DNA of 56,794 nucleotides from Sulfuricurvum sp. (GTDB taxonomy: Bacteria; Campylobacterota; Campylobacteria; Campylobacterales; Sulfurimonadaceae), in NCBI GenBank assembly GCA_030692765.1, contig JAUYUB010000025.1, positions 1 through 56,794 on the forward strand, given 5' to 3'. The translations under genes were made by a program, and so were the position numbers. Below are positions 5,177 through 56,794 of this stretch, piece after piece. The stretch's first letter is position 1. The number at the start of each line of letters is the position of its first letter. The notes beneath the pieces are model-generated. The model saw only the letters and a program-made list of their open reading frames with translations, had not been told where the DNA came from and did no database searches.

Positions 5177-7126
5177 ATGAAATCACTCCTAATTCGTCTT
5201 ACACATGGTCTTTATGATCAAGATATCACCTCAGAAGAGCGCGAGCTGGTTGCTCAATGGCACAGTATGAATTTATTGACGTTCATTGATCATAAATATC
5301 AATTTTCATCTCAGTATCGAGCGGGGATTGTCAGTTTGGCGCAAACCTCTGGAGCATATCTGCAGACGATTGGTGAAAGTATACGCGATCATTTTATTGA
5401 TGTGTCTCATCTTATGGGTGCTAAAAATGGGGATCTTGTCATCGCTCAGAGGCTGTTAGGCAAACGAGGAGGTCCCAGTGCAAAGGTGGTACTCGTAGTT
5501 GGACGCAGCGAGACCTTTGGTGTTGCCTTATTGGTTGCGCAAAACGGTACGTTGGTGCTGCAAGATATCCGTACCCAGCAGTCAATAGGGCTGTCGCTGG
5601 TTGATTTGCCCGAAGCACGCGAGGGATCGGTGTACCAAATTAACAATCAGACCAATACGCTTATGGCGTATTTAGGAAATCTTAGCGATCCAAAAGTGGA
5701 TGAAAAAATTGTCCTCGCTTTATACAATAAACACGATGAATTCGAATTAGAAATACTTGAAATGGCGGCTTCGTTTCCCAAAATCGTTGATGCATCTTTG
5801 TATCCCGATCGTCGTGATCTGCGTCATCTTCCCTTTTGTACCATTGATCCTGTTACTGCCAAAGACTATGATGATGCTATCTGTTATATCCCGCAAACCA
5901 ATACGCTGTACGTAGCGATCGCTGATGTCAGCGAATACGTAAAACCGTTTGGTGCTATTGATGCGGAAGCGATTTATCGCAGTTTTTCCATCTATCTGCC
6001 TCATCGATCTATTCCTATGCTACCACGAGAGTTGAGTGAGACATTGTGCTCGCTTCAGCCATTGGTGGATCGTTTGGCCTATACCTTTGAGATGAAGATC
6101 AATCCATCAACGTATGAAGTAGATTCATTTGAATTGTATGAATCAATCATCCATTCCCACCGCCGTTTTACCTATGAAGATATTGATGCCTTTTTAGACG
6201 GCAATCTTCAAGCAAGCAACGAAAAAGAAGCGCTAACTTTGGCGTATATTCCTGCACTCAATGAACTTACGGGGAAACTGCGTGATGAGCGGTATAAAAA
6301 AGGGTACCATTTTCGCTCTAGCGAATTGGAAATGCGTATTGACGACGAGGGTAACATCACCAAAACCGAATTTGCCGTTGAAACACCGTCTCATGGTTTG
6401 ATCGAGGACTGTATGTTGTTGGCGAACAAAGCGGCGGCTTCGATGTATGAACGGGGTGTTTTTCGTATTCATGAGTCACCCAGTGCACTGAAGCTTCAGT
6501 CACTTTATCAGGAATTAGCGAGTATCGGTATTTTTGTGGAGTTCCAAGGTTCGATCAAAGAGACGATCACGGCTATCCAAGCCGAAGCCGAGAAACGAGA
6601 ACTGGTTAGCGAAGTGGACACGTTGATTATCCGTGCACAGATGCAGGCGCGCTATGCTCCGTATAATCTAGGACACTTCGGATTAGGGTTCGATCACTAT
6701 ACGCACTTCACTTCTCCTATTCGTCGATACAGCGATCTTATCGTACACCGATTGCTCAAAGCGATCAAAGCAGGAGATACCGAAGAAGGTTCTTATGTAT
6801 TGCGAAATATTGAATCATTGTGTACCTCTATCAGCGAAAAAGAGCGTGAAGCCAGTGACATAGAGATCCGTTTCCAAGAGCGTAAATTTGCACGCTGGGC
6901 GCATACGGTCATCGGCCAAACCTTCAAAGCACGTGTCATGCGTGCAGAAGATCAGATCGTGGCAGAGATTCATGATGTGGTAACGGGAGCCAAGGTAAAT
7001 GTTACAACACAATTTGGTCTTATGCTTTTTGACGATATCGTTGTCAAAATTGAAACGTCCAATCTGGCGACGGCAAAAATTACGGGCTCTTTTGTAAGCC
7101 GAGTGGAAAAGGAAACGGATGAATAG
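5177..7126 (+). CDS. rnr: Ribonuclease R family exoribonuclease (RNB domain)
   Basis: A 3'-5' processive exoribonuclease that degrades structured RNA. Cold-shock-like RNA-binding segments occupy roughly residues 60-200, the RNB catalytic domain follows with DPVTAKDYDDA at 224-234 (its aspartates bind the catalytic Mg2+), and an S1-like domain closes the protein (about 570-640). At 649 residues it is shorter than E. coli RNase R (about 810) because the N-terminal helix-turn-helix and basic tail are missing or short, as is usual in epsilonproteobacteria. It overlaps holA by eight bases, so the two are likely co-transcribed. The start codon lies six bases after a -10 box. Confidence 0.93.
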   Translation: MKSLLIRLTHGLYDQDITSEERELVAQWHSMNLLTFIDHKYQFSSQYRAGIVSLAQTSGAYLQTIGESIRDHFIDVSHLMGAKNGDLVIAQRLLGKRGGPSAKVVLVVGRSETFGVALLVAQNGTLVLQDIRTQQSIGLSLVDLPEAREGSVYQINNQTNTLMAYLGNLSDPKVDEKIVLALYNKHDEFELEILEMAASFPKIVDASLYPDRRDLRHLPFCTIDPVTAKDYDDAICYIPQTNTLYVAIADVSEYVKPFGAIDAEAIYRSFSIYLPHRSIPMLPRELSETLCSLQPLVDRLAYTFEMKINPSTYEVDSFELYESIIHSHRRFTYEDIDAFLDGNLQASNEKEALTLAYIPALNELTGKLRDERYKKGYHFRSSELEMRIDDEGNITKTEFAVETPSHGLIEDCMLLANKAAASMYERGVFRIHESPSALKLQSLYQELASIGIFVEFQGSIKETITAIQAEAEKRELVSEVDTLIIRAQMQARYAPYNLGHFGLGFDHYTHFTSPIRRYSDLIVHRLLKAIKAGDTEEGSYVLRNIESLCTSISEKEREASDIEIRFQERKFARWAHTVIGQTFKARVMRAEDQIVAEIHDVVTGAKVNVTTQFGLMLFDDIVVKIETSNLATAKITGSFVSRVEKETDE

Positions 7127-54968: not shown

Positions 54969-55379
54969 ATGAACATTAACTACAAAATTAATCCAACACT
55001 CTCTACGGAAGAGTTCATCAAGATTCTTAACCGTTCAACTCTCGGCGAGCGTAGACCTGTTGATGATTTAGAATGCATCGAGGGTATGATCAAAAATGCT
55101 GACATTATTGTCACCGCAGTCATAGAGGATAAGATTGTAGGAGTAGCACGAGCAGTCACAGACTTTAGTTATTGCTGCTATTTGTCGGATTTGGCAGTAG
55201 ATGCTGATTTCCAACATCACGGAATCGGCAAAATGCTCATTAGAAAAATGAGGGAGCAACTAGGTTCTAAATGCAAAATTATTTTACTCTCTGCTCCCTC
55301 GGCGGTCGAGTATTATCCGAAAATCGGTTTTACGCAACATTCGTCAGCATGGGTATTGGACAGTTCTAAAGAACTGTAA
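54969..55379 (+). CDS. GNAT-family N-acetyltransferase
   Basis: A 136-residue single-domain GNAT protein. The acetyl-CoA motif is HHGIGKMLI near 87-95, after the strand SDLAVDADFQ, and the C-terminal YPKIGFTQH follows. It is the third GNAT in the window and the second in this cluster. AGGAGTCAA precedes the ATG. Its stop overlaps the stop of the convergent arylamine N-acetyltransferase by 14 bases. Confidence 0.82.
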   Translation: MNINYKINPTLSTEEFIKILNRSTLGERRPVDDLECIEGMIKNADIIVTAVIEDKIVGVARAVTDFSYCCYLSDLAVDADFQHHGIGKMLIRKMREQLGSKCKIILLSAPSAVEYYPKIGFTQHSSAWVLDSSKEL

Positions 55380-56112
55380 AGTGTTCTCTAAAGGCAGTGG
55401 GATAGTTGACAGTAGATATGGTTGTAATCCCATTTTCGATGATTTTGAGGCTATCGTCAACTAAGATTTTTCGTCCATTGTGGGTTTGCATAACCGCGAG
55501 TTTTTTTTGAGTGAAAATGGTATCGGGATGTGTTGCATTGAAATGATTAGCAAGGCTAAATTCAATCCATTCTTGCGGGACAAGGGCAAAGCCGTATTGA
55601 GGTTCCCACTCATTTTGCACAAGGCCATTCAGGACGTATTCGCCATTCATGAGTTCTACACGAAATGAGTCTCCGTTTTGTACCGTCACGTTTGTATCTG
55701 TAACTTCCAAAGGTTCTCGTATGCCATATCCTCCAAACCCTGTGTCACACAAATATTCTTTCCCCTCGATGGTGACAATCACGACCATATGGGTTTTAGG
55801 ACGACGGGTAGGGTAGAACATTGGACGTGCCCCTGCAAAATACCACTCGAATCCAATAGCGGTGAGTGCCATAGTAAACAAACCGTTTACTTCGTAACAA
55901 TACCCCCCACGTTTATTGGTCACAATTTTGGTGTAAATATCTTCGGGAATGAGTGATGGAATACGACCGGCTTGGACTTCGGTATTTTCAAAGGGTACGG
56001 ATTTCAGCTGTGCAGACATGAGCGCTGTGAGGGTTGAGAGATCGCAATGTGTTTCACCATTGTGTCCGATACGATTGAGATAATCTGTGAGGGAGAAATT
56101 GGATGAGGTCAT
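55366..56112 (-). CDS. Arylamine N-acetyltransferase
   Basis: A 248-residue NAT enzyme, which moves acetyl from acetyl-CoA to arylamines and hydrazines. The catalytic triad is intact: Cys72 in RGGYCYEVN, His108 in KTHMVV and Asp123 in LCDTGFGGYG. I chose the start at 56112 (MTSSNFSLTDYLNRIG), preceded by AAGGATAAAA, over an upstream ATG. It stands alone on the minus strand, within the accessory cluster. Confidence 0.9.
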   Translation of the reverse strand: MTSSNFSLTDYLNRIGHNGETHCDLSTLTALMSAQLKSVPFENTEVQAGRIPSLIPEDIYTKIVTNKRGGYCYEVNGLFTMALTAIGFEWYFAGARPMFYPTRRPKTHMVVIVTIEGKEYLCDTGFGGYGIREPLEVTDTNVTVQNGDSFRVELMNGEYVLNGLVQNEWEPQYGFALVPQEWIEFSLANHFNATHPDTIFTQKKLAVMQTHNGRKILVDDSLKIIENGITTISTVNYPTAFREHFTVL

Positions 56113-56274
56113 TTTTATCCTTGGTATACTGGATGTAAGTATAGCTTTTTTGGATACCATTTATAATAATGATCAAAAATATTAAGAATATCTACGAGTT
56201 GATTGTTGCTAGATTACACGATTACTACACACACATAGTGTTAATATTCAACATCTTAAAATAAAAGGGTTAAC

Positions 56275-56511
56275 ATGAAAAAGAATAAAATAGCGATGCT
56301 CGTATTAGGTACAGCGTTGGCAACGGGTTATGCAGCAGCGGCTGAGTCATCAAGTGCAAAATGTGCTGCAGGAAAATGCGGTAGTAAAAAAACAGAAAAA
56401 CCAGCCGATGCAAAATGTGGTAGTGAAAAAGCTGCAAAACCAGCCGATGCAAAATGTGGTAGTGAAAAGACTGCAAAACCAGCTGATGCTAAATGTGGTA
56501 GCAAAAAATAA
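56275..56511 (+). CDS. Bufferin-like cysteine-repeat precursor peptide
   Basis: A 78-residue secreted peptide. A signal peptide (about 1-23, ending YAAAAE) precedes a low-complexity mature part with five cysteines at 30, 35, 48, 61 and 74. From residue 34 the pattern KCGS(K/E)KxxKPADA repeats with a period of 13 residues (39 bases in the DNA). Cysteine-repeat peptides directly before a DUF692/MNIO gene are substrates for Cys modification to metal-binding groups, as in bufferins and HvfA; copper handling is the reported function there. AGGG precedes the ATG. The next gene is such an enzyme. Confidence 0.75.
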   Translation: MKKNKIAMLVLGTALATGYAAAAESSSAKCAAGKCGSKKTEKPADAKCGSEKAAKPADAKCGSEKTAKPADAKCGSKK

Positions 56512-56529
56512 GGTTTAATGGAGATGATT

Positions 56530-56772
56530 ATGAGTGGGTTGTGTGGGTGTGGTCTTGGTCTTAGAAGTGAATTTTTGGAAAGTATCCTTGATTCATCCAA
56601 TAAGGTAGACTTTTTTGAGGTAACCCCTGAAAATTGGATTACCACACCAACAAAACATCTTCGTACTTTTGAGAAAGTTCTTGAGCGCTTCCCTGTGGTG
56701 GCGCACGGAGTTTCTCTCTCTATTGGTTCAGATTTTTCTCTTGATACGCACTTTTTGAAAAAAATCAAATAG
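56530..56772 (+). pseudogene. MNIO (DUF692) maturase gene start, with in-frame stops
   Basis: The first 80 residues of a multinuclear non-heme iron oxidase. CGLGLRSEF, then FFEVTPENWI (with a metal-ligand glutamate) and AHGVSLSIGS (with a metal-ligand histidine) follow the family order. A TAG at 56770-56772 stops it; the next codons read FLDRY, as the family would, then a second TAG (56788-56790) and the window ends. A normal enzyme has about 280 residues. I start it at the ATG at 56530, which has GGAG six bases upstream; an ATG at 56518 is also in frame. Sequencing error, decay and truncation by the window cannot be separated here. Confidence 0.7.
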
Positions 56773-56794
56773 TTTTTGGACAGATATTAGATTA

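Follow-up and report, generated by a model that had tools for sequence, protein, structure and literature searches.

Precursor peptides with KCG repeats have been assigned to the Buf_EGKCG/oxazolin or 'Lys-Cys' captophorin group (PMC12452194, PMC13097082), in which an MNIO enzyme and its DUF2063 partner convert Cys residues to copper-binding 5-thiooxazoles (PMC12452194, PMC13097082, PMC13419390). HvfB activity requires this partner (PMC13419390), and oxazolin precursors without an MNIO were called rare in a 2025 survey (PMC12452194). Here, we analysed a 56,794-nucleotide stretch of Sulfuricurvum sp. DNA (hereafter, the window), which corresponds to contig C4 in a genome of 28 contigs and whose last base is also the last base of the contig. 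Our preferred reading, to which we give a probability of about 0.6, is that a second and divergent hvf-type operon begins at the right end of the window (hvfA2-hvfB2 and following genes), that the Cys residues of its precursor would be oxidised by the MNIO and its partner into a copper-binding product, and that the two in-frame TAGs in hvfB2 are more likely contig-end errors.

The precursor peptide hvfA2 and its family

The right end of the window contains the following features:

55366-56160, minus strand: arylamine N-acetyltransferase-type gene (PF00797), divergent from hvfA2, present in 21 of 41 genus genomes
56275-56511, plus strand: hvfA2, a secreted-type Cys-repeat precursor peptide of 78 aa with five Cys (ORF; NF050137 over cut-off; homologous to genus HvfA peptides)
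56275-56343, plus strand: signal-peptide-like start MKKNKIAMLVLGTALATGYAAAA of hvfA2 (from the sequence and alignment with HvfA-type peptide starts; cleavage site judged by eye)
56373-56508, plus strand: tandem repeat of 39 bp or 13 residues, KCGS(K/E)KxxKPADA, 3.5 copies (Tandem Repeats Finder; residue positions)
56520-56523, plus strand: GGAG between the two ORFs, likely the ribosome-binding site of the MNIO gene
56530-56794, plus strand: hvfB2, encoding the N-terminal part of an MNIO (DUF692/HvfB-type), truncated where the contig stops
56770-56772, plus strand: first in-frame TAG of the MNIO frame
56788-56790, plus strand: second in-frame TAG, six codons after the first

The Cys repeat of exact 13-residue period behind a signal-like start, as described in the initial annotation, was confirmed. 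Indeed, the Cys residues of hvfA2 occupy positions 30, 35, 48, 61 and 74, the last four being exactly 13 residues apart in the units KCGSKKTEKPADA, KCGSEKAAKPADA, KCGSEKTAKPADA and KCGSKK, and the period is real and also a DNA repeat, since Tandem Repeats Finder returned a period of 39 with 87% matches. The motifs are AKCGS with one Cys per unit and one GKCG; the first is KCA, with Ala after Cys, and the spacer Pro stands one position outside the five-residue motif. EGKCG repeats of 17 residues are absent, and a second precursor type in the survey is also without 17-residue repeats (PMC12452194). Note that the MNIO-linked peptides of the order vary widely.

Comparison with known HvfA precursors, which the initial annotation had proposed, gave a match over the cut-off for the HvfA-family domain (NCBIfam NF050137; 22.5 bits, cut-off 19.5), and hvfA2 is thus of the HvfA/oxazolin (Lys-Cys) type and not a bufferin proper. 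It matched neither the HvfA equivalog NF050188 nor, in Pfam, DUF2282. The earlier label naming HvfA and bufferins together was partly right, and was too loose in that bufferins proper (DUF2282, Buf_6/12Cys) form separate groups of precursors. The proline-alanine spacer, taken at first for unfamiliar, did not turn out to be unique, because six loci from another family of the same order (L142, L143, L147, L148, L151 and L152) encode secreted-type peptides with exactly this KPADAKCG string, and KAADAKCG spacers are common in the genus. A scan of viral contigs returned no KPADAKCG.

The hvfB2 fragment and its in-frame stops

The MNIO start directly downstream was likewise borne out: exactly 18 bases, the GGAG among them, separate the hvfA2 stop from the ATG at 56530, and the fragment scored 82 bits against Pfam PF05114 (MNIO, formerly DUF692; cut-off 25), covering the first 82 of 263 positions, and 87 bits, as a fragment, against the NCBIfam HvfB model, while its residues 6-80 are similar to PDB 3bww. 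A promoter scan found no promoter. The frame is, however, not open to the window edge, a point missed in the initial annotation: it runs for 80 codons, after which both TAGs come in the final 25 bases before the contig end. Owing to these stops and the contig end, hvfB2 has no complete open frame with all metal ligands. Reading TAG as a sense codon was ruled out, given that 7 of the 32 window ORFs of at least 200 aa end in TAG, which makes it an ordinary stop here. The 80 codons are free of stops and frameshifts and keep GCGLGLR, PENW and HGVSLSIG, and their divergence from relatives (dN 0.40-0.52, with dS saturated or at least 1.8) indicates that constraint acted on hvfB2 through most of its past. 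In addition, the residues around the stops (K-x-FLDRY-x-I, with FLDRY between the two TAGs) still fit the MNIO family, and Lys occurs at the TAG sites in some relatives.

Both ends of every contig in the assembly were compared with one another, and eleven end pairs proved to overlap end to end, though imperfectly: the overlaps span 46-675 bases and are 82-96% identical. These mismatches lie mostly at third codon positions and are thus largely strain variants; errors at contig ends as the explanation of all of them were ruled out, only some ends being error-like. The end-to-end overlaps, which include C5s/C17e, C16e/C18e and C25e/C28e, indicate that this assembly (G000) mixes strain variants. 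At the left edge, positions 1-141 of the window match the beginning of C18 base for base and nearly all of them recur in C23, so this edge is a repeat. Among the error-like ends, four substitutions in seven bases create a TAA in contig end C7s where the overlapping C8s has sense codons, which is a likely precedent, in the same assembly, for a false stop near a contig end; the end of C13 carries several replacements where C9 matches a genus relative. The window end (56794) had no overlapping partner among the compared ends, hence no independent sequence at the stops. Altogether, sequence errors at the contig end are the more likely source of the hvfB2 TAGs and are favoured over a true lesion, a preference that is unproven and draws on one precedent in the assembly.

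A complete operon on C13 and the standing of the window copy

The initial annotation had placed the rest of the operon outside the window, which holds in so far as the window ends with its contig; however, no remainder was found elsewhere in the assembly. PF05114 profile and DNA searches of the genome returned no other piece of hvfB2, which ruled out a continuation of this MNIO on another contig, and the rest of hvfB2, hvfC2 and hvfX2 were not found in a genome rated 99.9% complete. A DUF2063 partner had also been expected nearby; the window contig ends before any such gene could appear, and the only DUF2063 gene found, together with the only complete MNIO, belongs to a separate operon. A copper-responsive regulator, likewise suggested in the initial annotation, was not noticed among the genes examined. 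This operon, a complete hvfA-hvfB-hvfC-hvfX set, lies on the minus strand of C13 in the same genome:

C13 2456-2193, minus strand: HvfA-like peptide
C13 2180-1359, minus strand: MNIO (hvfB), complete frame
C13 1362-664, minus strand: HvfC, with DUF2063 and NGO1945_C
C13 662-243, minus strand: HvfX/DoxX, over the NCBIfam cut-off

Among the 41 genus genomes searched, the C13-type locus is present in five other genomes, whereas a second copy like that of the window was found in none of the others. The peptide-MNIO arrangement is not due to chance, since it recurs on C13 and in these relatives. The window MNIO fragment is only 54% identical to that of C13 and, in a tree of 33 MNIO N-termini, falls outside the genus clade (80 residues did not resolve its exact place), which rules out a recent duplication of the C13 operon. 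A scan of genome contigs for close relatives of the fragment gave one distant match, and plasmid MNIO matches all remained below 60% identity. The window copy is, as read from these comparisons, the putative start of a divergent second hvf-type operon that is unique among the 41 genus genomes.

This uniqueness, the position of the fragment outside the genus clade and the window end without an overlapping partner could point to a chimeric or misbinned contig end carrying a locus foreign to this genome. We hold this to be extremely improbable, because 20 other genus genomes contain relatives of the adjoining N-acetyltransferase gene, up to 81% identical, because the last kilobase (G+C 0.394) is close in composition to the whole window (0.417), and because the closest relative of hvfA2 within the order belongs to the same genus. 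A more serious competitor, although still rather unlikely, is real decay, in which hvfB2 would survive in this strain as a pseudogene remnant, with hvfA2 on its way to loss or matured in trans by HvfBC of C13. Two in-frame TAGs, and an operon remainder missing from a nearly complete assembly, speak for it, as does the survey, in which precursor genes separated from MNIO genes are described and another locus is proposed to mature them (PMC12452194). Against decay, the first 80 codons show no damage, both stops are confined to the extreme contig end, and a false stop was seen at another contig end of the assembly (C7s).

The second-operon reading is supported because hvfA2 and hvfB2 pass their family cut-offs, because the gene order matches hvfABCX on C13 and in the five other genus genomes, and because the 80 codons keep their motifs and show the dN and dS values given above. 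The artefact interpretation of the TAGs is supported because both lie in the last 25 bases, Lys is often found there in relatives and FLDRY fits, and because of the C7s TAA facing C8s sense codons. Counting against this reading are the presence of two stops rather than one, the lack of an overlapping partner at the window end, the prevalence of strain variation among contig-end mismatches, the missing hvfB2 remainder, hvfC2 and hvfX2, and the unmatched HvfA equivalog. From the described families, we infer that the hvfA2 peptide would be made with a Sec-type signal, that the MNIO iron enzyme and a DUF2063 partner would oxidise its KCG cysteines, with 5-thiooxazoles as the most likely result, and that the oxidised product may be exported and bind copper; the family chemistry (PMC13097082, PMC13419390) supports such oxidation. 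Should the lesion be real, maturation of hvfA2 in trans by the intact HvfB/HvfC of C13 would still be possible. Two unlike HvfA-type precursors and one intact HvfBC pair in a single genome offer a natural test of how loose substrate choice is.

HvfA-like peptides without MNIO and comparison with known systems

Among 399 genomes of the order, an HvfA-like peptide was found in 49 (E <=0.01), and in 36 of these 49 the window MNIO fragment had no match. Within these 36, PF05114 exceeded its cut-off in one (G421) and in none of the other 35, and PF09836 (DUF2063) in none. We read 27 loci from 26 of the 36 genomes, and all 27 encode Cys-repeat peptides whose starts resemble signal peptides; of 12 peptides tested, 9 passed the HvfA-domain cut-off. 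Of the 27 loci, 17 include a DoxX gene in the stretch read (two DoxX proteins were tested and scored 123-125 bits, with an HvfX cut-off of 80), and a gluconate-2-dehydrogenase-3-like gene with an RR-type start occurs together with a GMC oxidoreductase in 17 of 27, the frequent order being peptide, DoxX, subunit 3, GMC. Where a peptide-bearing genome lacks an MNIO, the subunit-3 family is usually present (9 of 10), versus 5 of 38 with MNIO, a difference that kinship could partly explain, and in some of these nine the gene does not adjoin the peptide. KCG peptides beside this pair, often with HvfX/DoxX, were seen in loci L137-L144, L147-L149, L151-L154, L158 and L160, and some of these loci also have a response regulator and a histidine kinase. 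L157 holds two Cys-rich peptides of secreted type in tandem (5343-5813 and 5974-6360), one with many CDYKKKCDKSKK repeats, in a genome with no PF05114 match. No paper was returned by one literature search that combined DoxX with GMC oxidoreductase and Campylobacter. These MNIO-free neighbourhoods are more unusual than the window locus and deserve their own look.

Such loci bear on how hvfA2 itself might act. It is conceivable, albeit highly improbable, that hvfA2 works unoxidised, its secreted thiols binding metal directly and the adjoining MNIO not being needed: in the order, 35 genomes encode HvfA-like peptides, some with KPADAKCG, but no MNIO over the cut-off, and DUF2063 is over its cut-off in 0 of the 36 tested genomes, whereas here the MNIO starts 18 bases after hvfA2 and the genome keeps an intact HvfB and HvfC. 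For the order at large, a speculative and improbable idea is that HvfA-type KCG peptides function without MNIO and DUF2063, a peptide-HvfX-gluconate-dehydrogenase-3-GMC operon replacing the MNIO pair; the thiols would then stay unmodified or be oxidised by a flavoenzyme. If this were true, hvfA2 and its broken MNIO neighbour would represent a stage between the two conditions. The dehydrogenase-3/GMC pair may also be an ordinary sugar-acid dehydrogenase and a mere neighbour.

Compared with these same-order HvfX/GMC loci (L142, L148 and others), the window shares a secreted-type KCG peptide and, in six of them, the identical spacer, but their genomes are without MNIO or DUF2063 over the cut-off, unlike the window genome. 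With bufferins, the likeness extends to a secreted Cys peptide with MNIO, DUF2063 and DoxX genes, although hvfA2 has KCG repeats and not the Cys pattern of Buf1 (DUF2282) or Buf2 (Buf_6/12Cys). The Lys-Cys captophorins fontiphorin and gonophorin (PMC13097082) have Lys-Cys-Gly beside an MNIO, as in the window; FonBC tolerated Ala after Cys, as found in the KCA of hvfA2, and accepted no Pro inside the five-residue motif (PMC13097082), the Pro of hvfA2 being one position outside. In the Haemophilus influenzae hvf operon (HvfA-HvfB-HvfC-HvfX, oxazolin; PMC12452194, PMC13419390), paired AEGKCGEGKCG motifs contrast with the AKCGS units of hvfA2, and at the window locus the MNIO is stopped and cut and partner genes are not seen. 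However, a signal-like start, repeated KCG and an MNIO directly downstream are shared with the H. influenzae operon, and the C13 copy has all four of its genes in the same order.
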